A stretch of DNA of 55,347 bases from a virus, in IMG/VR virus record IMGVR_UViG_3300046170_000038, positions 1-55,347 of that record; one strand, written 5' to 3'. Positions 1 to 55,347 of the stretch are shown here, one piece after another (position 1 is the first letter of the stretch; the number at the start of each line of letters is the position of its first letter). Under the pieces are notes generated by a model, which saw nothing but the letters and a program-made list of their open reading frames with translations, was not told where the DNA came from and made no database searches. The position numbers and the translations under genes are program-made.

Positions 1-242
1 CACATATACTACGCCACCCCCAGTGGCCCTTGCCCCGCCCGTGTGATCGCCTGTGAAGAAGGTACCCGTGCATTATCTCCCTCGGTTTTTCCACACATCT
101 TTTTTGCCACACCATCATTGCCGCATATGCCTGTTATCATGGGCGATATGGGATAGCGGCAAGTGTTATGAAAACAGTTATGGTGCGATATGTGAAAGCA
201 AACATTCAAATATTAGAATGTGTGAAGCGATGTTGAGCCGAT
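1..242. repeat. Left copy of 242-bp terminal direct repeat
   Basis: Bases 1-242 are identical to 55106-55347. This is either a true direct terminal repeat, as in T7-like podoviruses that package concatemers, or the redundant end of a circularly assembled genome. It contains no convincing gene; the short ORFs in it have no ribosome binding site or recognisable product. Confidence 0.95.
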
Positions 243-5541: not shown

Positions 5542-6375
5542 ATGGCTTTAGATTTTATTCCAGAGAACCTTGACTTCGCAGTAGCGTTTGAGGACACAAA
5601 AATGCACGACAAAAAGTATGTGCTTAATGCAGACACTGGCAAGTACATGGGTATTGTTGGTCAAGGCTTTCAGTGTGCCAGCCACGGTGATTTCTTCCGA
5701 GGTGTATGGGACACAGTGACAGAGGAAATGTCACCTAATGAGTTAGCAGATGCAGACTTTACATGGCATACTGCTAGAGGTGGGGCATGGGCAATGCTTG
5801 ATGTTACCTTACCCAACATGCGTAGTACCATAACTACAGACAAGCATGAGACTAGCATTGGCAATCGTATCATTAGTCTGCATGGCATTGATGGATCATG
5901 CAGCAATCAATCTTACTTTGGTGCTATTGATTACTTCTGTAAAAACGGAATGATCAGTGGTGACTATGACAAAATCCGTAAGAAGAACACAGCCAACTTT
6001 ACCCTTGAGGGTTTCATCTATGAGTTGGCACGTGCAAGGGCTAGTTTCTATGACAACGCTGCAAAGATGCAGGTGTGGGCTAACACCTCAACTAAATATG
6101 TAGATGTTAAGTCTTTGCTTGATGATATGATTTCATCTAAGCGTAAAGCAGAGAAAATGTTTCAGTTGTATAGCCATGAGGCCAGTGTACGTGGGCATAA
6201 CAAGTTCTCTTTGTACTCTGCCTTCACCAACTATGCCAGCTATGCTGATGAACGTAATGGGTTCAGCCTCAAGAATACTGGCAATGATACACAGGCAGTC
6301 AGCATGTGGTCACGTGAGCAAGAGGTGAGCAAGTGGGTCAGTGATCCTAAGTTCATCACATTGGAAGCTGCATAA
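5542..6375 (+). CDS. DUF932 phage/plasmid-like protein
   Basis: 277 aa. Start at ATG 5542 (MALDFIPENLDF) with AAGGAAC upstream. The layout matches the DUF932 family (phage/plasmid-like protein): YVLNADTGKYMGIVGQGFQC near residues 35-55, the central GNRIISLHGIDGS and CKNGMISGDYDKI segments, and a C-terminal NGFSLKNTGNDTQAVSMW. Members are common in phages, often near replication genes, but have no settled biochemical role. Confidence 0.85.
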   Translation: MALDFIPENLDFAVAFEDTKMHDKKYVLNADTGKYMGIVGQGFQCASHGDFFRGVWDTVTEEMSPNELADADFTWHTARGGAWAMLDVTLPNMRSTITTDKHETSIGNRIISLHGIDGSCSNQSYFGAIDYFCKNGMISGDYDKIRKKNTANFTLEGFIYELARARASFYDNAAKMQVWANTSTKYVDVKSLLDDMISSKRKAEKMFQLYSHEASVRGHNKFSLYSAFTNYASYADERNGFSLKNTGNDTQAVSMWSREQEVSKWVSDPKFITLEAA

Positions 6376-7499
6376 TGACTAAGTTGCCACGATATGTACA
6401 GCCACGTAAACAACCCAAGGGTGTAGTGTCTTATCGCTTCAACCCACCTCAGTCTCTTGTTGATGCTGGGGTGGTGAGCCGCAAGGAATGGGGTACTGAT
6501 CTTAAACAGGTTAAGGTACTCGCCAAAGAGTTGAATGACTTAGTTGACAAGTACCGTGAAGAACAGGCATTGATATTCAATGTTAAGCCAAGCAGCACTG
6601 TTGCAAATTTGTCACAGTATTACTTTGCCTCTAATGATTTCAAGGCGTTACGTAATACAACTAAGGTACATTACAGGTACTTCATTGGTCTACTGGACAA
6701 TGCCATAGGTCACATGAGGCATGGTGATGTTACCTCTAAGGTTGCAAAGCATTTGTATGAACAGTGGGTTGAGCAAGGCATTAGCTTTGCCAATCATGGT
6801 GCTACCTGTGCCAGCCGTGTCTTTAACTACGCCATTGAAATGGAACAGATTAACACTAATCCTTTCACCAACATTAAGCGTAAGGCTACACCACAACGTA
6901 AGGTAGTATGGGAACATGCTGATGTGACTAACTTTATGGACACCGCCTTCAGTAAGTACAAGTACCGTAACGTGGGCATGATCGTGGCTATGGCCTATCA
7001 GTGGTGTCAAAGACTAGGTGACATGCGTATGCTTACGTGGGATGCCCTTGACTTAGACAGGCAGCGCATGTACCTTGAACAGTCTAAGCGTAGGGCAGAG
7101 GTGTTCCTACCCATTGATGATCAGTTACATGTAATGCTCAAGGAACAGCATGAGGACTACGGCTTTCAGCCTTATGTTGCACCCCACCCTACACCTGTAG
7201 GTGGTACGTTCAAACCCTATGGCATGGAAAGACTATCTAAAGTAGGACGTAGGGTAATGCGAGAGGCTGAGTTACCAGAAAGCCTACGCCTTATGGACTT
7301 ACGTAGGACAGGGGTAACACAAATGGTTGAGGCAGGTGTACCATTGCCACAGTTGATGGCTGTTACTGGTCACACACATGTTGCATCTGTGAAACCATAC
7401 ATAAAAAATACATTCGCCTCTGCTAATAAAGCCTTGACAGCACGTAATGCTCATGTAGAATTGAGTGTAACGAAGAACATTGAAAGTGATTGGCTATGA
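6375..7499 (+). CDS. int: Tyrosine recombinase / integrase
   Basis: 374 aa. The N-terminal part (about 70-165) fits a SAM-like core-binding domain. The catalytic domain has Arg213 (WCQRLGDMRML), Lys near 238 (EQSKRRAEVF), Arg310 (LMDLRRTGVT), His333 (VTGHTH) and Tyr342 (KPYIKN). The position where most members have the box II His (HxxR) is Met307 here. No excisionase, repressor or att site is evident. It lies between DUF932 and primase, so it may serve genome resolution or DNA circularisation, or integration in some hosts. Confidence 0.88.
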   Translation: MTKLPRYVQPRKQPKGVVSYRFNPPQSLVDAGVVSRKEWGTDLKQVKVLAKELNDLVDKYREEQALIFNVKPSSTVANLSQYYFASNDFKALRNTTKVHYRYFIGLLDNAIGHMRHGDVTSKVAKHLYEQWVEQGISFANHGATCASRVFNYAIEMEQINTNPFTNIKRKATPQRKVVWEHADVTNFMDTAFSKYKYRNVGMIVAMAYQWCQRLGDMRMLTWDALDLDRQRMYLEQSKRRAEVFLPIDDQLHVMLKEQHEDYGFQPYVAPHPTPVGGTFKPYGMERLSKVGRRVMREAELPESLRLMDLRRTGVTQMVEAGVPLPQLMAVTGHTHVASVKPYIKNTFASANKALTARNAHVELSVTKNIESDWL

Positions 7500-25827: not shown

Positions 25828-26026
25828 TTTGCATTCCCGCCCGTAGCTTCTGTAATATTTTAAATTGATCTATAAGATAATTATCATCAGCCATGTTAGT
25901 ATCTTCCTCAACGGGTTTATTACGTGAAAGTAAACCTGATTGTTTTGCAGGTTCTTCTTTAGGCTGCATCATCATACTTTTATTCATGTAGTCTCTATAA
26001 GCTGTAGCAGCTTGTCCCTTTAACAT
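25820..26026 (-). CDS. Small virion-operon protein, 68 aa
   Basis: Met-rich N-terminus (MNKSMMMQPKEEPAKQSGLL), acidic centre. It contains SGLLSRN, similar to the SGLMAR tails in the neighbouring proteins. Function unknown. Confidence 0.6.
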   Translation of the reverse strand: MLKGQAATAYRDYMNKSMMMQPKEEPAKQSGLLSRNKPVEEDTNMADDNYLIDQFKILQKLRAGMQNG

Positions 26027-26038
26027 TACATTCCCCTA

Positions 26039-28111
26039 TTAAAATATAGCTTTAAAACCCGGTATTTTACTACCTACATAACCAAGAGCAAGTGTACTTA
26101 CAAAGTCACCAATAGCACTAGACGATGCTACATCTGCTTGATACTCTGCTGTTGATCTTTCTCTACCTGCAGCCAAGTGACTCAGTGTTACAGCATTCTG
26201 TCTGTCACGTTCATTGTCAGATGAAGTCCATGCCCATTCCATCATGTCAGCATGTTCTTGCCACAGATTAGAGTATGCCTGATTAGACATGTCAAGTACA
26301 GCAGCAGCATTAATTTCATTAGCCCTATTGACAGCGGCTGTTGCTGCAGTTGCAATCTCTCTACGCCATACAGCATTAGACTGTGCAATTACTAAACCAT
26401 TCTGTGCATTAAATTGATCACGTTGATTTGCAATCTCTGTATTAAATTTGTTAACAGCATTCTCTTCACCAGCATTAAACTGTGACATAGCATTAGCTTG
26501 TGTAGTATTAAACTGTGAAGTCTGTGTTTTAAGGTTAGCAAAGAACTGGTCAGATTGGTTCTCACTAGTTGCATTAAATTGCTTGGCTGCATTCTCTGCT
26601 GCCTGATCTGTAAACATAGACTGTGTACGTTGTTGTGCCTTAAACATTTCTGTCTGTTGTTGATTAGCTAGGTTAGTCATGTCCATTGCAAGGAATGACT
26701 GTGCATTCATTACGGCTGCAGCCTGTCGGTTACTTAGATTAGCCATGTCAAGGTTTGCCAGTGACGATGCCTCTGCCATAGTAAGTGCCTGTCGGTTAGA
26801 CAGGTTACTCAGGTTCATTGTGTTAGCTGCACGACTATTCTCTAGTGCTACCTGTTGTTCTGCAGTAAAGTTCATGTTAGCTATATCACTAACCTTAGCT
26901 GCATTAGCTACACGTGACTGAAAGGCTTGATCAAACTCCATGCCCATAAAGGTAGCACGTTGTTGTGCTGACAGCATGGCTCTCTCTTGACGATTACTCA
27001 GGTTTTTTATTTCAAACCCTGCAACTGTCTGTGCATCTGCACTAGCAATAGGCAGTGCTGACTCCATAGCTGCCTGTACAAGAGCCTGTCCTGCCATGCT
27101 ACTAGCACCAAGGCCACGTGCAGCCATCTGTGCTGTAGCGTTGCGTAAGGCTCCTGCAGCCCATGCTGGTGTTTCACCACCCTCAAAGTCTGCCATCAAT
27201 GTATCTAGCTGACCCTTTACAGTAGCCCTGTCACTAGGTGTGGCTGTTGCTGCCTGTATCTGTTCTGTAAACTGACTTGCCTTTGCAGCATTAGCTGCTG
27301 GCTCAATGATCTCACCTGCCTGTAGCTCACGCTGTACAGGGTTATCCATTTTAAGGGCAGTGCCTTGTGCTGCATCTATAGCAGATACTGCAGTCTCAGT
27401 TTGTTGCTGTCCTGTTACCTGTGCATCATCTGATACAGTACCTGTAGGTGTTTGTGTTTGATCAAGTACACCCTCTACAGTACCTGCAGTTTTAGTTGGG
27501 TCTACTTTAGCTATTCCTTGGGTTAATGGATAAGAAGCTAATCTACCTTTATCTCCTTCATCTACAGATGGGCCTATAGGGGGTGCTGTAGATGGTTTAA
27601 ATCGTGCCATATCATCATGAGGTTCATATCTTGGTCTAGGGTCAAACATACGAAACTCATTACGAGGATCATAGGCAGTAGCCTGTGCAACTGTACCCTG
27701 TGTAGCTGTGGCTGTAGGTGATGTTGCACCTACCTGTCCAGCACCTGCAGCTAAGTCTTGTGATGTTTGTGCAACAGTGCCAGTAGCTGTAGCTATACCA
27801 CCAACAGGTAGTGCTGGTCCTTGCATACGGTTTACTGTAGTCTGACCAATACTTGCAGGTGTTTCAGGTTCTTCTGGTTCTATGGGTTCTACAGGTGTAG
27901 TTACATCACCACCTTCTTGATAGTTTTTACGCACCATACCACCATTCATCATTTGAATAGCTTTGTTTTGAAAGTCATTAAACTTCATCTGTGCTTCAGG
28001 ATCAGTTTGTAAAAAGTCTTTAAACTTTCCCATGTCACCCTGATAGCCTAACGTACCAGCTATACGCTCCATTGCCTGTGGTTTAAATCCTTGAAACTGC
28101 ATTGCTGTCAT
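26039..28111 (-). CDS. Repeat-rich internal virion protein, 690 aa
   Basis: N-terminal PQAMERIAGTLGYQGDMG and MVRKNYQEGGDV precede a Pro/Thr/Gln-rich linker (about 60-280). The C-terminal half is a degenerate repeat of about 14 residues built on NLSNRQ...MAQAQ... (NLSNRQERAMLSAQ, NLSNRQALTMAEAS, NLSNRQAAAVMNAQ, NLANQQQTEMFKAQ), then FN-A/T repeats (QFNATSENQSDQFF). Such arrays form long coiled coils. The protein is probably virion-internal. It starts with ATG 28111; 28102 is an alternative. Confidence 0.7.
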   Translation of the reverse strand: MTAMQFQGFKPQAMERIAGTLGYQGDMGKFKDFLQTDPEAQMKFNDFQNKAIQMMNGGMVRKNYQEGGDVTTPVEPIEPEEPETPASIGQTTVNRMQGPALPVGGIATATGTVAQTSQDLAAGAGQVGATSPTATATQGTVAQATAYDPRNEFRMFDPRPRYEPHDDMARFKPSTAPPIGPSVDEGDKGRLASYPLTQGIAKVDPTKTAGTVEGVLDQTQTPTGTVSDDAQVTGQQQTETAVSAIDAAQGTALKMDNPVQRELQAGEIIEPAANAAKASQFTEQIQAATATPSDRATVKGQLDTLMADFEGGETPAWAAGALRNATAQMAARGLGASSMAGQALVQAAMESALPIASADAQTVAGFEIKNLSNRQERAMLSAQQRATFMGMEFDQAFQSRVANAAKVSDIANMNFTAEQQVALENSRAANTMNLSNLSNRQALTMAEASSLANLDMANLSNRQAAAVMNAQSFLAMDMTNLANQQQTEMFKAQQRTQSMFTDQAAENAAKQFNATSENQSDQFFANLKTQTSQFNTTQANAMSQFNAGEENAVNKFNTEIANQRDQFNAQNGLVIAQSNAVWRREIATAATAAVNRANEINAAAVLDMSNQAYSNLWQEHADMMEWAWTSSDNERDRQNAVTLSHLAAGRERSTAEYQADVASSSAIGDFVSTLALGYVGSKIPGFKAIF

Positions 28112-28113
28112 TA

Positions 28114-28377
28114 TTAAAATCCGTCCTTTAATCCGTCAAGTATGTCTTGAACTGATACTCTCTTCTTAGCATTAGGTGTGTATCTACACATATATGTCTT
28201 AGGGCATTCACTAAACTTAAACATAGGGTAATGATATCCTATTGTACCATTAGGTCCACGGTAAATGCAAACCATTTCTCCCTGTATCTTAACTCTTTTT
28301 GCTAAGTGACACTGTACAAACTCAGGGTTACTTAACAGCCCTGCTAACACAAGGGGTAACACAACAAGATTAATCAT
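28114..28377 (-). CDS. Small secreted or membrane-anchored protein, 87 aa
   Basis: Hydrophobic N-terminus of about 15 residues (MINLVVLPLVLAGLLS) resembles a signal peptide. The mature part has four cysteines (QCHLAK, MVCIYRG, SECPKTYMC) that could form disulfides. A periplasmic or outer-surface role is inferred. Confidence 0.65.
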   Translation of the reverse strand: MINLVVLPLVLAGLLSNPEFVQCHLAKRVKIQGEMVCIYRGPNGTIGYHYPMFKFSECPKTYMCRYTPNAKKRVSVQDILDGLKDGF

Positions 28378-28856
28378 TAACTAATTCCTAGTGATATCAG
28401 ATATATGCCCCCACCTAATACACCAATGATTAGTAATGATAGGCCACCTATAGCTGCGTTGTTTGCCATCTGTCTTTTAGCTTCCATCGCCGCATACACA
28501 GTCTCTTCACGTTCCTTACGTATTTGCCTACGCATACCTAACATTTCATCGTATGTGCCTACACCAAACCTGTAGTCTAACATAAACTTTATTTCTTTTT
28601 CTTTCTCAAGCAATGTTTTCTTACGAACAATAATGTCCATTGCTTCTTGTTCTATGTTGTCAGTACCGTGGGTCTGCTTGTCTAACCACGTAGGGTTTTT
28701 ACGTTGAGACTCAGCCCTAGTAATGTCAGCTACTGCACCGTACCACTTACCTAGTTGCTGTGATACATCTTGTATTTCTCTGCCAGCACCTACTAGCATC
28801 TTGACCCCTTTGAAGGCTGCATTAGCTGCAGCAAAAGCTGTAACGGGGTCAATCAT
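28377..28856 (-). CDS. Virion-operon protein with C-terminal membrane span, 159 aa
   Basis: Helical, charged body and a hydrophobic C-terminal stretch (GLSLLIIGVLGGGIYLISLG, about 137-158), so it is likely tail-anchored in a membrane or a core particle. Its ATG overlaps nothing; it lies between two small membrane-associated genes. No family recognised. Confidence 0.65.
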   Translation of the reverse strand: MIDPVTAFAAANAAFKGVKMLVGAGREIQDVSQQLGKWYGAVADITRAESQRKNPTWLDKQTHGTDNIEQEAMDIIVRKKTLLEKEKEIKFMLDYRFGVGTYDEMLGMRRQIRKEREETVYAAMEAKRQMANNAAIGGLSLLIIGVLGGGIYLISLGIS

Positions 28857-28860
28857 TTAA

Positions 28861-29115
28861 TTATCTCTTTGCGTGATTAGTTGTAACCACATTTAATGCA
28901 TCCTTGATTGCTTCTACATTTGCATCAATACGTGCAATCATTACGTCATTCTCTTGTATATCATCTTCTAGTATTTCCATACTAGTTCTCATATCTTCTA
29001 TGTCATTCATGTTATACTTAATGTCTGATACCATGCTGGACACTGCCCACACTACAGCAGCACCCTGTGCTAGTAATGCTCCTGCTATTGTTACTAATGT
29101 CCAGTTGATATCCAT
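28861..29115 (-). CDS. Single-span coiled-coil membrane protein, 84 aa
   Basis: N-terminal hydrophobic segment (TLVTIAGALLAQGAAVVWAV, about 6-26) followed by an acidic coiled coil (DIKYNMNDIEDMRTSMEI). This is the layout of small phage membrane proteins such as spanin- or holin-like accessories, but no motif decides it. Confidence 0.6.
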   Translation of the reverse strand: MDINWTLVTIAGALLAQGAAVVWAVSSMVSDIKYNMNDIEDMRTSMEILEDDIQENDVMIARIDANVEAIKDALNVVTTNHAKR

Positions 29116-29603
29116 TAGCTAGGCTCCGTAGGCCAATCGCCCCCATTGCCTTCCATGTCAGGACTTGCCAAGTTAGGCCAGTTAGAGTGAGTAGTAATAT
29201 CACGTAGTGCTGTACGGTAAGTTACCCATGCACTAGGTACAGAGCCACCAGCTTCTAATGCTTTTGTTACAACCCAATCACAACTAGCTAGACGTTTATC
29301 TCTTTCTGCTCTGTTACGTGTAGCTACTTCAGCATTAGCAGCAGTGACTACAGCAGCACGTTCCTCAGAGGTCATATCTGTGACACGGCGAGTATATACT
29401 TTACCGTCCTGCAGATATGGCGTGACACTCTCGTTTTTTTGTGTGGCTGAGTCATAAGCTAGGAACACAACCACTTCTGCACAGCTATTAGCCGCAAGCC
29501 AATCAGCATCAGGGCCAGCTTTAGGGAATGAAGTGTTAGGAAACATAGACTTGTGATCTGCTATCTCGCCTATAGTGCTGCCATCTAGTTTTGCTATCTT
29601 CAT
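29115..29603 (-). CDS. Tail fibre assembly-type protein (Phage_tail_APC-like), 162 aa
   Basis: The C-terminal 60 residues match the tail-assembly pattern: RDKRLASCDWVVTKALE, WVTYRTALRDIT, then NWPNL and DWPTEPS. A smaller relative lies at 34221-34502. Such genes accompany tail fibres. Overlaps the preceding gene's stop by one base. Confidence 0.7.
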   Translation of the reverse strand: MKIAKLDGSTIGEIADHKSMFPNTSFPKAGPDADWLAANSCAEVVVFLAYDSATQKNESVTPYLQDGKVYTRRVTDMTSEERAAVVTAANAEVATRNRAERDKRLASCDWVVTKALEAGGSVPSAWVTYRTALRDITTHSNWPNLASPDMEGNGGDWPTEPS

Positions 29604-29605
29604 GT

Positions 29606-31645
29606 CTATTGTCCTTTATCTGCGAATGCTTTGGTCGGTGCTGTGAAATTGCTTGTATAACGAGCAAACTTGCTTATACGAACTTCATCCATATATCCGT
29701 TGGAAGGGTAAGTAGTTTCAGCAGTTCTGAGAGTGCCTAGAAACCAAGGAAATCCACCCGTATCTAAGTTAGAAGAGGATGTAACGGATATATCACTAGT
29801 GCCATTTAAATATAATTTGTAAGAGGTTCCATTTTTCACTAAGGCAAGATGATACCAAACGTCATTATCCAATGTTGTACCACCAGCATTGGCTATATCA
29901 TAACTAGAATTATTAGATGATAAAGCCAAAGATAACGTCCCATTACCTGTATATATTTGAAAGCCGTTGCCTTTAGTTATAAGTTCTTGATATGCTGGTG
30001 ACGTTTTATTTACGAACCTCCAAAAAAACTCAACAGTCCAGTTACCTCCACCATCAATGTTGTTTCCCCCATTCTCTGAAAAAGTGGCATAATCACTATT
30101 ACCATCCAGAAGCAGAGAAGCAGTACCAAACTTTTTTTGCGCCGTGCTAGTTTTAGCAGTGCCATACAACGTCAGATTATTCTGTGAAGTACTGTCAATC
30201 GCCTGACCATCTGCCATGTTTAAGAGCAGCTTGGTGTTGGTGACGGCTGTAAGGGGGGCTGTTGGGACAGTATACGTTGTGCCACTATATAACGCAGTGC
30301 CTTTTACAATTCTTGCATCACAGATATAACCGTCAAAGTCGTAAGAAGCACCGTCCATAGTGCCAATTATAAATGTTGTACTACTTCTATCTAAGTTGTT
30401 ATTTATACCTGTTGCTGCTGAACTTTTTCTAGCACCGTTGACGTAAATATAACCTGTGCCGCTGCTGACAGAGAAAGCTATATGGTTCCAAGCATTTATT
30501 TGCACAGGGTCACTACCATCTGTGGTTAAATCTATTGCACCTCCTGCATTATCTGCAGCATTTAAATAAAAATTTACTTCATTTGTATAACGCAAAGAAA
30601 AATACCAGCCTGTAGGATAACCACCTGCTTGAGCCATAATCATTGGATAATCATTGCTTTCAGAAACAGTTGGATATACCCAAGCCTCTAGTGTAAAGGT
30701 ATCACCTAGAACAAAGTCAGCAGAATCCCCAGTGCTTAAAAAGTCATTGTCTCCATCAAAATAAGCACTCGCCCCGTTCACCGCAGGGTCATACACACTG
30801 TTGGACAGGAATGGGCCAAATGCTGTTACTGCTGGATTGCCCACAGGTGTTAATGCAAATCCTGTTGAGGAATTATCAATGAACCTGTTGCTTTGGCAGG
30901 TTAAAAGTTTGGTATTTGTAATGGCAGTTAATGCAGAAGTTGGGACAGTAATGCTTGAGCCACTGTATAGGGCAGTGCCTTTAAGTAGTCTAAGGTTGCT
31001 AATGTGACCATTAAAATTACCGCCACTAGCAGTATAACTGCCAATTCTTGCTGTACCGGAGGATGCACCTTGTGTTGCAGTGTTTGTGGCTTGTGCCACT
31101 CTTGTCCCGTTTAAATACAAGCTAGTGTTGTTGCTCCCTGTGCCTGACCTAACTACTGCGACATGGTTCCAAGTATTTGTTAAGATGGAATTATCAGCAC
31201 TTTTAACTATATCAGCACCCGCATACCAACTGACATATTTGTCAGATGAATGAATATATAATTGTGTGCTGCCAATTAGAAAAGTATTCGGATGCTGATT
31301 ATCTATTACAATAGTTCTAGCATTAAAAAAAAGCTCAAATGTGTAGTCACCATCTAAACTCATTGTTGCATCATTTGTGTATGTTAGGCTATCCCCATCA
31401 CCATCAAAGGACCAACTCCACTCACCATCAGGCCGAGCAAATGGCCCAAACGAGCCTTGGGTTACATTGCCATTAGCTGTGATTGTGTGGTTGCTTGTAG
31501 AGCCATCATCAAAAGCATTGTTGACACCGTTGTTACTGCCCTCAAAATGACTGAGAAAACTAACACGGTTGAACTGATCGTCTGACGGTGCCGCATCTGT
31601 ACCAGAAGCACCTAACAGTCCTGTATTGAAGAATGATTTAGCCAA
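29606..31645 (-). CDS. Tail protein with three LamG-like domains
   Basis: Start chosen at TTG 31645 (LAKSFFNTGLLGA) because GGAGGGGC lies just upstream; the open frame extends to 31690 but that would overlap the preceding gene more. 679 aa. Three concanavalin A/LamG-like units are visible: around WSFDGDGDSLTYTN, AYFDGDNDFLSTGD and LLLDGNSDYATFS, each ending in an RLLKGTALYSG/ARIVKGTALYSG/VRISKFARYTS strand. Such domains bind carbohydrates, so this is a likely receptor-binding or tail-appendage protein. Confidence 0.78.
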   Translation of the reverse strand: MAKSFFNTGLLGASGTDAAPSDDQFNRVSFLSHFEGSNNGVNNAFDDGSTSNHTITANGNVTQGSFGPFARPDGEWSWSFDGDGDSLTYTNDATMSLDGDYTFELFFNARTIVIDNQHPNTFLIGSTQLYIHSSDKYVSWYAGADIVKSADNSILTNTWNHVAVVRSGTGSNNTSLYLNGTRVAQATNTATQGASSGTARIGSYTASGGNFNGHISNLRLLKGTALYSGSSITVPTSALTAITNTKLLTCQSNRFIDNSSTGFALTPVGNPAVTAFGPFLSNSVYDPAVNGASAYFDGDNDFLSTGDSADFVLGDTFTLEAWVYPTVSESNDYPMIMAQAGGYPTGWYFSLRYTNEVNFYLNAADNAGGAIDLTTDGSDPVQINAWNHIAFSVSSGTGYIYVNGARKSSAATGINNNLDRSSTTFIIGTMDGASYDFDGYICDARIVKGTALYSGTTYTVPTAPLTAVTNTKLLLNMADGQAIDSTSQNNLTLYGTAKTSTAQKKFGTASLLLDGNSDYATFSENGGNNIDGGGNWTVEFFWRFVNKTSPAYQELITKGNGFQIYTGNGTLSLALSSNNSSYDIANAGGTTLDNDVWYHLALVKNGTSYKLYLNGTSDISVTSSSNLDTGGFPWFLGTLRTAETTYPSNGYMDEVRISKFARYTSNFTAPTKAFADKGQ

Positions 31646-32447
31646 GTGCTGCCCCTCCAAGGAAGCCGTAGTAAGTAGTGCCACCATCACGTGTAAAGAA
31701 ACCGTATCCGTTTACTTCACTATTTCCCGGTGCATCTGGTGCTGATCCTCCTGCCCAATCCACTGAGCTAGGCCAAGCAATAGTTTTAGCTGATGAAGGT
31801 TGAGTAATAAACAAAGTAAAACTGTATGCTGTACCACTTGTAGGTGGATTGCTAAATGCAAACGTAGTGTTCTCGGATAGTGTAACAGAAAAAGATGTGC
31901 CTGTAGCTAGATCAAGTGTAGTTGTAGAACCTGTGCTATTGGCTACATATGTTTCTTGGTATGTCAGAGGCTTTAGTGAGCCTGTCATGGTTACGGAAGT
32001 AGTGCCTGTAGGTATCTCAATTACGTCTGCGTCTGCGTCATTCTTAATTGTTACATCGTTAGTACTGCCCTGACCAGTAATGATAATACCTTCTGCTGCA
32101 GTGTAACCAATAGCTGCATCATCCCCTGCTGCTGTGTCACCTGTAGCTTGAAGTGTAGCACCAGAGGCTACTACATCACTTGTAAATACACTGTTACTTG
32201 TATCAAACGTACTAAAGGCTACAATCTCTACAGTATCATTAGCTGTAGCACCAGAGGCCAACACAACGTCTGACCCATTGGTAGCTGTATAGTCTGCCCT
32301 AGCTAAGTGTACCCCATTAAGATATACAGAAACAAGATCAGGGGTATACCCTTGGGTAGTAAATGTAGTTTGATTTGATGTGGCTGTATATACGTCCCGA
32401 CTTTGTGTAGCCTGTGGGGTAGGTATTGCGCCTATATATCCTGACAT
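31638..32447 (-). CDS. Tail fibre-like protein, 269 aa
   Basis: Starts MSGYIGAIPTPQATQSRDVYT, an N-terminus close to the next protein (MAGYIGGKVAVSAPQQIETK), followed by a shared VYLNGVHLARADYTATNGSDVV and GATANDTVEIVAFSTFDT segment. The C-terminus (TIAWPSSVDWAGGSAP, DGGTTYYGFLGG) is a small beta domain typical of fibre tips. Paralogue of 32457-33482. Confidence 0.7.
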   Translation of the reverse strand: MSGYIGAIPTPQATQSRDVYTATSNQTTFTTQGYTPDLVSVYLNGVHLARADYTATNGSDVVLASGATANDTVEIVAFSTFDTSNSVFTSDVVASGATLQATGDTAAGDDAAIGYTAAEGIIITGQGSTNDVTIKNDADADVIEIPTGTTSVTMTGSLKPLTYQETYVANSTGSTTTLDLATGTSFSVTLSENTTFAFSNPPTSGTAYSFTLFITQPSSAKTIAWPSSVDWAGGSAPDAPGNSEVNGYGFFTRDGGTTYYGFLGGAALG

Positions 32448-32456
32448 TCTGTTTCC

Positions 32457-33482
32457 TTATGAGTTTACTCTGCCGTACATAGTGATTGTCCCACTTACTA
32501 TGTTACCACTAGCAAATTTAAATTGAATCCCATCTACTATCGTTGCAGCTTTTGTTTTTCCTAGTGAATAACCGCCGCTGACTAGTCCACCAAGAGCACC
32601 ATTTTCTCTCGTATAAAGACCAAATCCAGTGACATACGTAGTTGTGTTTAAATGAGGGCATATAAGAGAGTATTCACCATTAAGGCCTTCATTGGTGGCA
32701 TTGCCAATTCCTCTATATGCTAAAGGTATATATGCTGCATCCCCCGCACTTGCAGCTGCATCCACGCCTTTTACATAACTATCTGAAGCACTTAAATAAT
32801 TAGAGCCATCATCAACACTCAACAAAGCCTGAAATAATTGATCGTCAGTTTGTGGTAAAATATTACCTAGTGTAAATATATAGCTATCATATTTACTTGA
32901 ATCAAAACCTGTAAAACTAGCAGTTGCTGCGTTGCTTACATCAGTAGAAGAGATAAATTCTAACCCACCGCCAACTTTAGTGCCAATATACGTAGCTAAC
33001 CTAGCCATTGTAGCTTTACGATTAGTGCCACCCGCACCGTCATCCACAACCATCAAGTCTGCATCAACTAATGCTGCACCAATGTCTGTACCACCGTCTA
33101 TGTCTAGGTCAACCAAAGGTATTGAGCCATCTGGGACAATTAAACTATTTGCAGTAACACTACCACTAACTGTTACGTTACTACTAAACGTACCACCTGA
33201 TGCCTTACTTACTGTATCACTTGTTTCAAAACTACCGTGGGACACAATAACAATTTGATCACCTTCAGTAGCACCTGTTTCTAAGGTAACAGTAGAGCCA
33301 TTAGTGGCAGTGTAGTCTGTGCCATCTACTAATCTTATACCGTTCTGATATACATGCACAGCACCGACAGTATAACCAACATTAGGAATACTGGTTTGGC
33401 TGGCTGTTGCCGTAATTGTGTGCTTTGTTTCTATTTGTTGTGGTGCTGATACTGCTACCTTACCACCAATATAACCTGCCAT
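32457..33482 (-). CDS. Tail fibre-like protein, 341 aa
   Basis: N-terminal MAGYIGG module as in the adjacent 269-aa protein, then a linker with DIDGGTDIGAALVDADLMVV and DDGAGGTNRKATMARLATYI, then a C-terminal fibre domain (FISSTDVSNAATASFTGFDS ... SGTITMYGRVNS). The middle and C-terminal modules are shared with the two neighbours at 33492 and 34527, so this is part of a paralogous fibre set. Confidence 0.75.
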   Translation of the reverse strand: MAGYIGGKVAVSAPQQIETKHTITATASQTSIPNVGYTVGAVHVYQNGIRLVDGTDYTATNGSTVTLETGATEGDQIVIVSHGSFETSDTVSKASGGTFSSNVTVSGSVTANSLIVPDGSIPLVDLDIDGGTDIGAALVDADLMVVDDGAGGTNRKATMARLATYIGTKVGGGLEFISSTDVSNAATASFTGFDSSKYDSYIFTLGNILPQTDDQLFQALLSVDDGSNYLSASDSYVKGVDAAASAGDAAYIPLAYRGIGNATNEGLNGEYSLICPHLNTTTYVTGFGLYTRENGALGGLVSGGYSLGKTKAATIVDGIQFKFASGNIVSGTITMYGRVNS

Positions 33483-33491
33483 TTTGTTTCC

Positions 33492-34210
33492 TTATGAGTT
33501 TACTATGCCAAACATAGTAATTGTTCCTGATGCTATGTTTCCACTATTATATTTAAATTGCACTGCATCTACATCGGCTGATGAGTTTCTTTGCCCTGCT
33601 ATTTGAATAAGAGTTGCGTATCCATCACTGCTATAATAGAATGTTTGGCCTACTACTCTTGTCGGCAGAGTTAGATGGGGGCCATGGATAAACATATGCC
33701 CACTGCATCCACCTTCTTCGCCTGATGCGGTTCCTTGACTAGCACTAACATTTATGTTTGCACTTGTTGCATCAAATCCAGCATAGCCACTACCACCACT
33801 ATCACCACGATATTGAGCAACATAATCACTACTACCTGTATCATAATTACTTCCACCATCAGTACTCGTTAGTAAAAGTAGTGACTTTGCATCAGCCGCA
33901 GAAACTACATTTAAAAATGTAAATAAATAACTGTCATACTTAGAAGAATCAAAACCTGTAAAACTAATAGTAGCAGTATCACTAGCATCAGTAGAAGCTA
34001 TGAACTCCATGCCACCACCAATCTTAGTACCCATATAAGTAGCAAGCCTAGACATTGTAGCCTTGCGGTTTGTACCACCAGCCCCATCGTCTACAATCAT
34101 AAGGTCAGCATCTACAAGAGCAGCACCGATATCTGTACCTGCATCAATGTCTAGTAAGGCAGTGTTACCCCACTACCAGTAAGATTAGCTGTGTCTCTTG
34201 CTTTAGTCAT
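33492..34210 (-). CDS. Tail fibre-like protein, frameshifted, 239 aa
   Basis: The open frame starts inside the conserved module (MIVDDGAGGTNRKATMSRL) at 34100, but the real N-terminus begins at ATG 34210 (MTKARDTANLTGSG). One base is missing in the C run at 34168-34171: restoring it joins the two halves, ...GSG then GNTALLDIDAGTDIGAAL..., and gives 720 bases, an exact 240 codons. The C-terminus (GTITMFGIVNS) matches its neighbour's. Confidence 0.72.
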
Positions 34211-34220
34211 GTTCTATCCT

Positions 34221-34502
34221 TTAGCTAGGCTTGGTAGGCCACGTAATACTATTAGGGAAGCCACTCTGTGCTGGTACGTCCCGTAGTGCTGCACGATAAG
34301 TAGTCCATGCACTAGACATGGTTACATCACTGTTGCCCATCCAATCGGTAGCAGCTAGTAGTGCATCCCGTTCCTCACGGACAGCTACAGCAGCACGTGT
34401 GTCTGCAGCATCAGCCCATGCCTTTTCTTCAGCATCACGGGCAGTTTCTTCGTCTGCTGTGAACTGAACCATTTCTCCGTTAATATTATGATATCTTGGC
34501 AT
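34221..34502 (-). CDS. Small tail assembly protein (Phage_tail_APC-like), 93 aa
   Basis: Begins MPRYHNINGEMVQFTADEE, then a charged helix (EERDALLAATDWMGNSDV), and ends WTTYRAALRDVPAQSGF, SITWPTKPS. The end matches the conserved assembly/chaperone domain of tail genes and the 162-aa gene at 29115. Sits between two fibre genes. Confidence 0.7.
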   Translation of the reverse strand: MPRYHNINGEMVQFTADEETARDAEEKAWADAADTRAAVAVREERDALLAATDWMGNSDVTMSSAWTTYRAALRDVPAQSGFPNSITWPTKPS

Positions 34503-34526
34503 TTCTGCTTTTCCTTTGTTGTTGTG

Positions 34527-35235
34527 TTATGAATCTTTAATTCCGTACATTCTAATTTCACCAGACTCTATATTTCCTGATGAAAAGAAAAATTGTATTG
34601 CATTTACATTAGCAGTAGCCTGTCTTGATCCACCATAGGTTACATAGTTATTACTGTATATTCTGCTATTAGGGTCTTGTCCCACTCCACCTGATGAAAT
34701 AATATAAGTGTAAGAGCTAGTAACATGCGGTAATCTGCACTCTATGTCTAAACTTGCACCAAGCTCTCCACTATCAGACCCAAAAGTATTAGTACCAAAA
34801 GGATCAATAACATTAACATCAGTAGTATTACCAAAATTATGATAATTATCACTGCCACTATCATAAGAACTGCCACCATTAGAGCTAGTTCTAACCTGTA
34901 ATAATACATTATCAGTAGCAGGAATAACTAATCTAAATTCAAACAGGTAGTGTACATATTTGCTAGAATCAAATTGTGTAAATGCTTGAGTAGCAGCATT
35001 ACTAATAGACCCAGATGAAACTATAAACTCTTTAAGTCCACCAACTTTAGTACCCATATAAGTAGCCATAGTCTCAACGGAAGTCATACGCATAGTGCCA
35101 GCATCGTTGATCAAGACACCATCACCATCAGCAATAGCAGTTGTGCCCTCTGGCTGTACCACCGTCTATGTTATCTAGTTCAGCTTTTGTTACACCAGTG
35201 CTTGCTAATGCAGCTAGTTTCTCTTGCCTACTCAT
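34527..35235 (-). CDS. Tail fibre-like protein, frameshifted, 235 aa
   Basis: Start ATG 35235 (MSRQEKLAALASTGVTKAEL) overlaps the stop of the previous gene. The frame breaks after LDNIDGGT and resumes as PEGTTAIADGDGVLINDAGT; one extra base near 35145-35162 explains it, and removing it gives 708 bases, 236 codons. The C-terminal fibre module (FIVSSGSISNAATQAFTQFD ... GEIRMYGIKDS) is shared with neighbours. Confidence 0.72.
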
Positions 35236-35591
35236 TAGCTGTCAATCTCCATATAGCTCATAATCACTGAGACTTTATCTGCTACACTACAGTCTACCTT
35301 AATGATATCACCTGCGTTAAGAACAACCTTACCGTCTAGTACAGACAGTGACGATCCTACTGGTATAGCTGCATCTTTAATTAGGTGTGCTGTAGTGTTT
35401 TGTGTTTGACTTGTTTGTGTAGTTGTACTAACCAGAGTTACACTTGCTGTAACCTGAGAGGTGTGTACGTTAGCTAAAGTAAGTCCTAAGATGATAGCCC
35501 TAGTACTTGATTGGGTAGTGTATATTGTTTCAGGAGTACCTGCACTAGCTGGTGCAACGTCCCTTGTAATTGTCTTGAATGTATTTGCCAT
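35235..35591 (-). CDS. Conserved tail structural protein, 118 aa
   Basis: All-beta small protein (MANTFKTITRDVAPASAG, TIYTTQSSTRAIILGLTLAN, VLDGKVVLNAGDIIKV). The type is common next to tail fibres of marine podoviruses. The stop overlaps the start of the next minus gene (TAATG). Confidence 0.7.
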   Translation of the reverse strand: MANTFKTITRDVAPASAGTPETIYTTQSSTRAIILGLTLANVHTSQVTASVTLVSTTTQTSQTQNTTAHLIKDAAIPVGSSLSVLDGKVVLNAGDIIKVDCSVADKVSVIMSYMEIDS

Positions 35592-35603
35592 TAATTTGTT
35601 TCC

Positions 35604-37346
35604 TTATCCAAGGGCGATTGCTAAAGCTGTTGCTTCATCTTGTGCGGTACTTGTTACGACTGCAGTAGTTGCAAGTGTACCAGCAGTACTAGGTAGTGTC
35701 AAGGTAATATCTGCAGTAGATGCAGGGACCAATTAAGGTTACTTTGTTTGTACCGTTATCACTATCCTCAAAGAACTCAAGGAACCCTGCAGAGGTAGAA
35801 CCATTCTTTAGCTGAACCCCTGCGTTTGCTATTGGGGTAGTTAGTGTAGCGTAGTAAGTGTTTTGTTTGTGAGTGTCTTAGAGGTAGCTGACAGATATGT
35901 ATCAAAGGTATCTACTGTAGTTTGGCGCATAGTGCCATTATCATTAGTAACAATACCGTCACCACCAGCTACAGCCGTAGTACCTGCAGAGGTATCCCCA
36001 TCCATTATATTAAGCTCAGTAGCTGTTGAAGTTACTGCTACATCTTCGTTAATCTTAGGAGAGGTTAGTGTTTTGTTTGTCAGTGTATCTGTAGATACAA
36101 GTGATACCAGAGTAGAGTTAGCACCTGCAGGTAACATAAGAGTATTAGTTACTCCTGCTGAGTGTGGTTGACCATATACTTTTTGACCATGACTGTTACT
36201 TTCACAGTTAAAGACAACAGCACCTGAGTTAGTGTTACCACGTACAACAACAGTGCCTGTACCATTAGGTGCTAAGTCTAGTGTAGCATTAGAAGTAGTA
36301 ACAATATCATTGCCATTAAGGTCTAGGTTGCCGCCTAACTGTGGGGTGCTATCTTCTGCTACATTAGAAATAGCACTAGAGGTAGCAAGGCCAGAGACTA
36401 CAGTACTTCTTGAAACTTTCTTTAAACCACCACCAGAAGTATCCAATGCAAGGAATACATCATCATTAGCAATAGTACTAATCTCTGATAGACTACCTAT
36501 TGTACTACCACTAGCATCAAGAATGTTTAACTCAGCAGCAGTTGCTGTTACCCCATCCATAATGTTTAGTTCTGCAGTAGTGGCAGTAACACCGTCCATA
36601 AGATTTAGCTCTGCTGTTGTAGCAGTTACACCATCCATGATATTAAGTTCAGCAGCAGTAGCTGAGATAGCTGTACCGTTGTAGTTAATAGCATCTACGT
36701 AAGCTGTACCATCAATGTACAAGTCACGCCATTCCTGACTAGACGAACCAAGATCGTATGCACTATCTGTATTAGGAATAATACTTGAGTTTACATCAGC
36801 ACCAAACACAACATTATCTGCTGCTGCATCACCTAAAGTAATTGTACCACCATTGAAGGTAGTAGTACCTGTTACTGTAAGATTGCCACCAATACCCAAG
36901 TTGCCTGAGATATCAGCATTACCATTCATGTCAATAGTAGTAGCTGCAATCTGTATCTCTGTATCAGCTACAAGGTCAAGCTGCCCGTCAGTACTAGAAT
37001 TAATATAGATAGCACTATCACGAAACTGTAACTTTTCCGCAGCCGCAATAAGTATATCATCAGAAAACTCAAAGTAATCCTCATCCTCCATCCACTTGAA
37101 TACACCGTCATTACTCTCACCATCAAAGGTTACTGTAATGTCTGTACCTGCAGTACCGTCACCCATCGTAATAGATGTACCAAGCAGCTTAGTAATAGGA
37201 CCACCTTCTGCAGTAGTCCCGTCATGTGTGTGGCCTGTACTTGCGGCAAAGGCAGCTAATAGCTGATCAAACTCATTGTTAGTGTGAGCCGCCGTAATTG
37301 TATCGCCATCTGTATATGATGATTGTCTTGAATATGTAGCACCCAT
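35604..37346 (-). CDS. Tail fibre protein with repeated trimer-type motif, frameshifted, 580 aa
   Basis: The N-terminus reads MGATYSRQSSYTDGDTITAA, a common start of long tail fibres. The centre holds four copies of TAxELNxMDGVTAT. The reading frame breaks twice near the 3' end: one base is missing near 35849-35853 and one extra C lies in the run at 35725-35727. Corrected, the C-terminus is ATLTTPIANAGVQLKNG..., then PASTADITLTLP and ...ALAIALG, and the total is 581 codons exactly. Confidence 0.75.
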
Positions 37347-39085
37347 CTAACGTCTTGCTCCTAATTGATATTCTAGCTGAAACCCTTTAAGTGAGTACGG
37401 GGCAGTAGTACCACCGTCTTCTACTTTTAATGCAACTGAAAAACCAGAACCTTCTACTGGTTGACGTACAAGGGGCTGGGTTGGCCCACCATAAACAAAC
37501 TGTGTTGCACTGCCTTCTGTGCTGTACGTAGCAGAACCATACTGTGCAGCCACGTTAGCTGTGTCTAGTGGGTAGTTTGCAGGTCTAGCAGAATCTGTAT
37601 CTTCATTGTCATATCTAAGTATTAAGTCAGCATCAATGTCTGCTTCTGGTTTGTAGTTAATGATAACCCGTTGCATGTGCTTACGGATACCAGTATCACC
37701 AAAGCTCATGTCAGGACTTCTGTATCTACCTAAGATAGCTGTACCATCAAAGTCATTGCCTGATTCTTGTCTTTGTATAAAGCCTGTAGTGTCACCGTGA
37801 AGAACAATTACATCACCTGACTCAACAAAAGGTATCCGTACAAGCTACCTGTATGCCTCTTGTTTCAGAAAACTCAAATGCTTCTTTCTTAAGAACACAA
37901 ATAGCACCTTTAGATAGTGACTGCCCTTGCCCATCTTTAGTAAAGAATATGCGGTATTGGGTCTTATCGGGTATAACTACGGAGTCAAACGATCCAGCAT
38001 CACTGATGTTCTCATCAAATACAGTTTGGATGTTCTTACTAATAGTACCCTAGTTCAGTATCACCAATACGTGCAGTCGCAGCAACAGTACGTAGTCCAT
38101 CAGGACCAAGAAATATTAAGTCACCTGCAAATTCCTGCACGGTAAAGCTGTTAATGCATCCAATGTTTCTAGTAACAGGTTGTACAGAAAAGTCAGAAGA
38201 ACTAGAACCAGTAAGTTTAAATATCCTGTTTTCACAAAAGATAAACAAGCTATCACGGAAAACCTTTAGTGCAACTACAGTATCATCAACCTTAATACTA
38301 CCTGCACCTTGACCACTATTAAACCCGTCTTCATCAAACGGCTCACTAAATACTACCTCTTGTGGTGTAGTAGACTTACCACCATAAAACATATGATTTC
38401 TATATGCAGCCACAACAGTAGCACCTGTTACACTACTATCACTAACATCTGCTGCTGACATAGAAGTGTTAAATATTACAGGAGCATTAACCCCATCCAC
38501 ACAGATAATCTTTTCGTTACCGTCAAAGTTATATCTTTCAAAGTGGTACTTTGCAGCACTGGTTCTACCTGTGTCTCTAACAGTCCAGCTTTCTGATACT
38601 ACATCAAGTTTAGCATGTGCTGCTGCAGTAGAAGATACAGCCCTAGTTACACCTGTAAAGTTAGTAGATGTTTTACCTGTGTAAGTAAATATCTCTGAGT
38701 TAATCTGTAATGTGCCACTAGAAGAAAAACCTAATGTAGATGGTACAGTAATAGTACCTGATCCTGTCATGCTTGTATCTGCTGCAATAGCAATAGACAA
38801 CTCAGCAGAAGCAGAACTAAATATCTTTTCACCTCTGGCTGCTATTACTTTATTGTCAAAGTTAGCAATCATTAGCAGTGGCTCAGAGCTAGAACTAGTT
38901 TGAGGCACAATAGCATTTACATATTTACGAAAACCACTAATACGTCTATAGCCACCTGAAATGTCAGGCTCAAAGTTTTCTAGTTGTAGTGCCTCTCCCG
39001 GTTGCATAATAAAGTTAGATCGGTTAAGAACTAATCCACCTTCACAGTTAAATGCAACTGGCTGTGTCTGGGAACTATCAGGCAC
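37347..39085 (-). CDS. Tail tubular B/nozzle-like protein, frameshifted, 578 aa
   Basis: Starts MPDSSQTQPVAFNCEGGLVL, then LNRSNFIMQPGEALQLENF and GGYRRISGFRKYVN, as in tail stem proteins of marine podoviruses. Two single-base insertions (a C run at 38048-38050, and near 37839-37848) split it into three frames; correcting them gives LGTISKNIQTVFDENIS..., then VLVRIPFVESGDVIVLHG..., and 579 codons. An inner GTLQINSEIFTYTGKTSTNF domain recurs in the next gene. Confidence 0.72.
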
Positions 39086-55105: not shown

Positions 55106-55347
55106 CACATATACTACGCCACCCCCAGTGGCCCTTGCCCCGCCCGTGTGATCGCCTGTGAAGAAGGTACCCGTGCATTATCTCCCTCGGTTTTTCCACA
55201 CATCTTTTTTGCCACACCATCATTGCCGCATATGCCTGTTATCATGGGCGATATGGGATAGCGGCAAGTGTTATGAAAACAGTTATGGTGCGATATGTGA
55301 AAGCAAACATTCAAATATTAGAATGTGTGAAGCGATGTTGAGCCGAT
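55106..55347. repeat. Right copy of 242-bp terminal direct repeat
   Basis: Exact repeat of bases 1-242 (see left copy). Its presence shows the sequence is a complete genome with redundant ends or a closed circle. Confidence 0.95.

Follow-up and report, generated by a model that had tools for sequence, protein, structure and literature searches.

Background

Several described systems resemble, in one respect or another, the group of tail fibre genes that is the subject of this work. Hypervariable recognition domains of marine phages are described as a part of metaviromic islands (PMC3909814), and a hypervariable lectin-domain region is reported for HTVC010P-type phages (PMC10504331). The C-termini of receptor-binding proteins are shuffled among phages (PMC10684548). 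Small chaperone genes adjoin the fibre genes of Pam3 (PMC9608196) and V22 (PMC7289586), and their products are presented as intermolecular fibre chaperones. In virophage DSLV2, three consecutive tail proteins are reported to form a heterotrimer (PMC12724248). We compare these systems with a fibre locus of the IMG/VR virus record IMGVR_UViG_3300046170_000038. The record is 55,347 bases long and was analyzed as a whole; we call it the window. The genes of the locus lie on the minus strand and are designated A, B, C, D, E, F, G, H and I in the order of transcription. Three of them, C, E and F, carry related C-terminal domains, which we call tips, on different N-terminal stems. An earlier note, made by a model from the sequence alone, had described a paralogous fibre set here.

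The locus resembles the metaviromic islands in having hypervariable recognition domains beside conserved parts, and the shuffled receptor-binding proteins in having non-homologous C-termini on near-identical N-termini. However, the accessible text of the two papers (PMC3909814, PMC10684548) does not describe one tip family distributed among the paralogous stems of one genome. Likewise, no title or abstract beginning in the searched open literature, which leaves subscription journals outside its coverage, deals with a single tip family that moves among several stems paralogous to one another. Mosaic fibre tips are already known from phages, and the extension of this mosaicism to several paralogous stems within one phage group looks new. 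How marine bacteria that are uncultured or grow slowly are recognized by their phages is largely unknown.

Results and discussion

Three genes of the fibre locus share a tip domain

A C-terminal domain some 170 residues long is homologous among the products of C (34527-35235), E (33492-34210) and F (32457-33482). By profile matching, it occupies positions 34530-35042 in C, 33495-34019 in E and 32460-32972 in F. The pairwise BLASTP scores are 95 bits for F and E, 68 for F and C, and 78 for E and C, while the best of 200 residue-shuffles of each pair scores 24-27 bits; the homology of modules proposed in the earlier note is therefore above chance. The same domain is matched by PHROG 14820 (phrog_14820; 8e-14 in F, 5e-21 in E and 2e-13 in C). 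The upstream parts of the proteins differ: C has a stem starting with MSRQEKLAAL, E has a stem starting with MTKARDTANL followed by a linker, and F has an N-terminal beta domain and a linker. The linker DDGAGGTNRKATM is common to E and F, and C has a diverged version of it. The tips end in GTITMYGRVNS (F), GTITMFGIVNS (E) and GEIRMYGIKDS (C).

The earlier note counted gene G (31638-32447) as the fourth paralogue. Neither the linker nor the tip motif was found in G, and phrog_14820 does not match it. The homology of G to F is limited to the N-terminal stem (BLASTP alignment of 91 residues, 46%, 78 bits), and its end domain matches other tail-fibre PHROGs, e.g., phrog_9017. Judging from these alignments, the window contains three tip paralogues, not four.

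Comparison of stems and tips among related loci

A protein search yielded 66 related environmental loci. An iterated profile gave 97 tip open reading frames (ORFs) in 73 sequences: these 66 loci, six isolate regions and the window. We excluded nine ORFs from the comparison of stems and tips, seven as incomplete and two because they had no assignable stem. The remaining 88 were reduced to 62 by dereplication at 95% within the same stem. Stems were assigned by hand from the context for seven ORFs at contig edges, two C stems and the three stems of the window.

Within a stem class, the mean identity in the 60 residues preceding the tip is 0.87 for C, 0.90 for E and 0.64 for F. For tip cores within a stem class it is only 0.39, 0.36 and 0.37, respectively, and it rises to 0.66-0.69 in the last 20 residues. 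Tip cores from the same position are no closer to each other (0.36-0.40) than tip cores from different positions (0.37-0.38). The same pattern is seen in DNA. In the comparison with two relatives, L012 and L015, genes A, B, D and G and the stems of C, E and F are mostly 85-100% identical, and identity drops to 23-60% in the tip cores of C, E and F and in much of H. Four variable islands (the three tips and H) are thus set between conserved DNA. In another relative, L009, the end of G and the region downstream differ as well.

Such a distribution, with very divergent tip cores on conserved stems, might arise if diversifying selection had driven the tips apart at their present positions and none had been exchanged. 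We regard this as very improbable, since the same tip occurs on different stems in different phages, which contradicts it unless the contigs concerned are misassembled. The F tip of L009 and the C tip of L012 are 97% identical, and the stems that carry them are 34% identical. Their DNA matches at 96.3% over 539 nt; the match begins 24 nt before the tip and stops 11 nt past the last codon. Two tips of the window recur in this way: that of F on an E stem in L013 (identity 0.85), and that of E on an F-like stem in L022-L024 (identity 0.79). A diversity-generating retroelement that mutates the tips would account for the localized hypervariability. However, the variation covers whole domains, and no reverse transcriptase (PF00078) was found in the window record, so we consider this explanation to have practically no chance.

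We examined the boundaries of shared DNA in seven pairs. In three, the shared DNA starts no more than 24 nt from the tip start and ends no more than 11 nt from the tip end. In the other four the match extends farther at one end or both, in many cases because relatedness continues into the stems or the downstream genes. Further rearrangements are seen among the relatives. A tip sits on a G stem in L026, L032 and L036, and F has an unrelated end in L037, L039 and L041-L043. In L037, the D gene together with an E-type stem is present twice (the second copy at L037:4095-4743), and this repeated cassette is direct evidence of duplication. Duplication and module exchange, suggested in the earlier note, are supported by these comparisons, more firmly than by the window alone, because the stems are conserved, tips at the same position are unlike, and near-identical tips stand on unrelated stems.

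Predicted fold and proposed mechanism

The AlphaFold2 model of the E protein from L005, a relative nearly identical to the window at this locus, has a beta-sandwich tip (confidence of blocks mostly 82-97, with one stretch at 65-72) and a stem of low confidence. In the model of F, the N-terminal domain is of modest confidence (blocks mostly 51-80). Re-alignment of the E tip model to PDB structures gave galectin domains with Z of 6.4-6.9 and beta-sandwich domains of GH32 with Z up to 8.5, at 5-11% identity; no phage fibre entry is prominent among the matches listed. Ninety-five viral models in BFVD match at E<=0.001, most of them from unnamed or uncultured Caudovirales. On the strength of the model, a lectin-like arrangement of the tip is plausible. 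Because the fold matches point to a common beta-sandwich only, and include those of GH32 enzymes, the tips might instead be virion decorations or enzyme-accessory domains with no role in host recognition. The fibre neighbourhood, the adjacent chaperone-like genes and the strong hypervariability of the tips make this unlikely.

We consider it probable that C, E and F are adhesin-type fibre proteins with position-specific stems and with tips of one family that are exchanged as DNA cassettes between phages and between stems. At the sequence level, cassette exchange is demonstrated by the incongruence of tips and stems together with the places where the shared DNA ends, and the comparison of loci likewise demonstrates that the stem is specific to the gene position. 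The three proteins most likely form separate host-recognition fibres or short adhesins. The stems would presumably set the attachment site, and the predicted beta-sandwich tips would presumably bind glycans or proteins of the host surface. Exchange most likely proceeds by homologous recombination, upstream through the conserved linker and downstream through the conserved gene end and the start of the next gene. The conserved linkers and gene ends recur within the window genome (repeats of 237 nt at 76% and 132 nt at 75%). They supply flanking homology for recombination, whether between co-infecting phages or from one position to another. The window contains a gene of the exonuclease VIII PHROG, whose product could take part in this recombination. 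We infer receptor binding, the trimer state and chaperone action for these proteins, as well as host-range adaptation of the window phage, the interpretation offered in the earlier note.

Several observations weigh against this reading. Of the 62 tips, 18 have their nearest tip in the same stem class, where 10.5 would be expected (P = 0.034), i.e., exchange is not wholly blind to position; on these sequences, position matters slightly and exchange dominates. Avoidance of like tips within a genome is not significant: 0 of 44 pairs reach 0.6 against 0.36 expected by shuffling, and two pairs reach 0.5 against 1.9 expected, with only the mean identity being slightly low (P = 0.034). A Foldseek search of the E tip model against PDB gave no match at E<=0.001, and the best Z in the re-alignment is only 8.5, in a range that the tool warns is common. 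Finally, the exonuclease has no identified annealing partner, and the adjoining gene lacks a Pfam match.

Frame breaks in the window record

As called in the window, C and E begin inside their stems. Their 5' ends are lost, and each gene has one frameshift, near 35150 in C and near 34155 in E. The sequence L005, from a different IMG/VR dataset, is 99.7% identical to the window over 30974-35319. C and E each contain one of the two gaps in this alignment, and in L005 both genes are whole. Comparison with five further relatives reveals additional single-base differences that disrupt the frames of A and of the tail gene at 37347-39085 (phrog_5107, labelled amidase). The latter is split over three frames in the window. 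In L009, L012, L015 and L050, which contain the gene completely or almost completely, it forms a single open frame; in L056 the contig edge truncates it. The frame breaks are probably indel errors of this record, in the case of C and E because the nearly identical L005 has both genes intact, though they may be rare real variants. We considered that C and E might undergo programmed or phase-variable frameshifting, and set this aside in view of the whole frames in L005 and other relatives.

The probable errors of the record bear on a further explanation, according to which the chimeric genes are artefacts of metagenome assemblers that joined strains at shared linkers. Misjoins occur at repeats such as the linkers and gene ends of this genome. 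However, the arrangement of the window recurs over 4.3 kb in L005, and the tip family is also found in multi-gene sets of the isolates HTVC010P, HTVC019P and HTVC034P. We therefore hold an assembly origin of the chimeras to be improbable.

Other genes of the fibre locus

Gene A (35841-37346) encodes a long upstream fibre-like protein, shortened here by the frame breaks (580-597 aa in relatives), and B (35235-35591; phrog_1276) encodes a conserved 118-aa protein. Gene D (34221-34502) encodes a tail fibre assembly chaperone-like protein of the Phage_tail_APC family (PF16778, 1.6e-20, 73.2 bits against a gathering cut-off of 26.6). A second Phage_tail_APC protein is encoded by I (29115-29603; PF16778, 2.6e-11, 43.6 bits against the same cut-off). 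The two small assembly proteins of the earlier note are both recovered in this way, although I lies just outside the span which that note covered. Small Phage_tail_APC proteins likely assist fibre folding and assembly. Their likeness to the chaperones of Pam3 and V22 is drawn from gene placement, as far as the accessible text on these phages goes. D stays conserved while the tips vary (mean pairwise amino acid identity of 0.84 in 40 loci); therefore, if it aids the folding of tips, it must act on their common features.

Gene H (29606-31690) encodes a protein of 694 aa with three LamG stretches (PF13385, 2.8e-49), as the earlier note had recognized. It differs among relatives and is an additional variable candidate adhesin. 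About 50 nt (31638-31690) are shared by the start of H and the end of G, which are read in different frames. Since L005 has no gap there, this overlap is not one of the frame errors of the record.

Tip triplets in SAR11 phages

A search with the whole E tip retrieved only SAR11 phages, namely five records that represent three phages, HTVC010P, HTVC019P and HTVC034P, all recorded on strain HTCC1062. Each phage has three consecutive genes with the tip family of the window, and in HTVC010P and HTVC019P the triplet is followed by an annotated fibre assembly or fibre gene. Triplets of this type (L077-L159) consist of short-stemmed tip proteins that are annotated as hypothetical in the isolates. Unlike those of the window, their stems are short, mostly 21-23 aa, and their tips largely keep to their positions; the tips are 32-34% identical to the window tips.

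The SAR11-type set comprised the best 80 of 344 environmental loci and the three isolates; because the search started from the middle gene, the set is biased towards stem 2 by design. Its 46 complete arrays were not dereplicated and include isolate copies, and stem classes were assigned by motifs picked by eye. By this classification all 46 arrays end in stems 1, 2 and 3, in that order. The profile counts three tips in 22 arrays and four to six in the other 24. The nearest tip is in the same stem class for 151 of 189 tips. Mantel r for tip similarity between positions is -0.07, 0.02 and 0.20 in the SAR11 triplets and -0.07, 0.08 and 0.24 in C, E and F; P is low only for SAR11 positions 2 and 3 (r = 0.20, P = 0.003).

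By analogy with DSLV2, the three tip paralogues C, E and F might form one heterotrimeric fibre tip together. The three copies in genomes with C, E and F agree with this, as do the ordered SAR11 triplet and the tendency of its tips to keep their positions. The likeness to the DSLV2 proteins, as given in the accessible text of that report, lies in the fixed positions of three tail proteins encoded one after another and in the divergence of their sequences. The difference is that a heterotrimer is reported there. Against a heterotrimer here, stem lengths are unequal in the group of the window, some of its members have the unrelated F end mentioned above, and tip similarity hardly correlates between positions. 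Because this group swaps tips across stems and the tips at the three SAR11 positions vary nearly independently, a heterotrimer is not favoured for the window; we rate it as rather unlikely, and prefer separate fibres with exchangeable tips. A broader and quite speculative proposal, for which we see a small chance, is that several abundant marine phage groups share a pool of exchangeable tips of one beta-sandwich family, carried on at least three position-specific stems in each phage, with the SAR11 triplet perhaps forming one heterotrimeric fibre in which each of the three faces varies on its own.

Identity of the window phage

The first 242 bases of the window (1-242) are repeated exactly and directly at its end (55106-55347), consistent with a complete genome. 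The capsid protein is closest to that of CRP-9 (81% identity) and the terminase to that of CRP-1 (82.5%), and all the best matches belong to HMO-2011-type phages. A partial DnaJ domain with two CXXCXGXG motifs in DNA polymerase A is given as a trait of HMO-2011-type phages, whose cultured members have SAR116 and Roseobacter RCA bacteria among their hosts (PMC6918029, accessible text). The polymerase of the window has two such motifs, at residues 291 and 316, between the exonuclease (42-171) and polymerase (343-673) domains; the Pfam match to DnaJ scores below its cut-off. A tyrosine integrase gene (6375-7499) precedes the genes for primase, helicase and polymerase. By the polymerase motifs, the homology of structural and packaging proteins and the position of the integrase, the window phage is of the HMO-2011 type.

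Compared with the isolates of this type (HMO-2011 and Roseobacter phages CRP-1, CRP-9, CRP-13 and CRP-345), the capsid is 72-81% and the terminase 70-83% identical. The polymerase with two CXXCXGXG motifs and the integrase are common to them and the window, and in HMO-2011 itself many small fibre genes follow one another, as in the window. However, the six isolate regions examined have no detectable tip of the window family. A megablast search of window positions 26000-38000 against phage records gave no match. Scanning contigs with the tip alignment for a prophage host gave five pattern matches, none of which was confirmed.

Conclusions

Tip exchange probably lets the phage keep pace with changing bacterial surfaces. 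The tip is a domain with clear edges that occurs both in an HMO-2011-type group and in cultured SAR11 phages, and this makes tips of the family candidate receptor-binding modules for expression and testing. The shared tip family is also a natural experiment in combinatorial host recognition. If the SAR11 triplets do form heterotrimers, their independently varying faces would give these phages combinatorial recognition of hosts.

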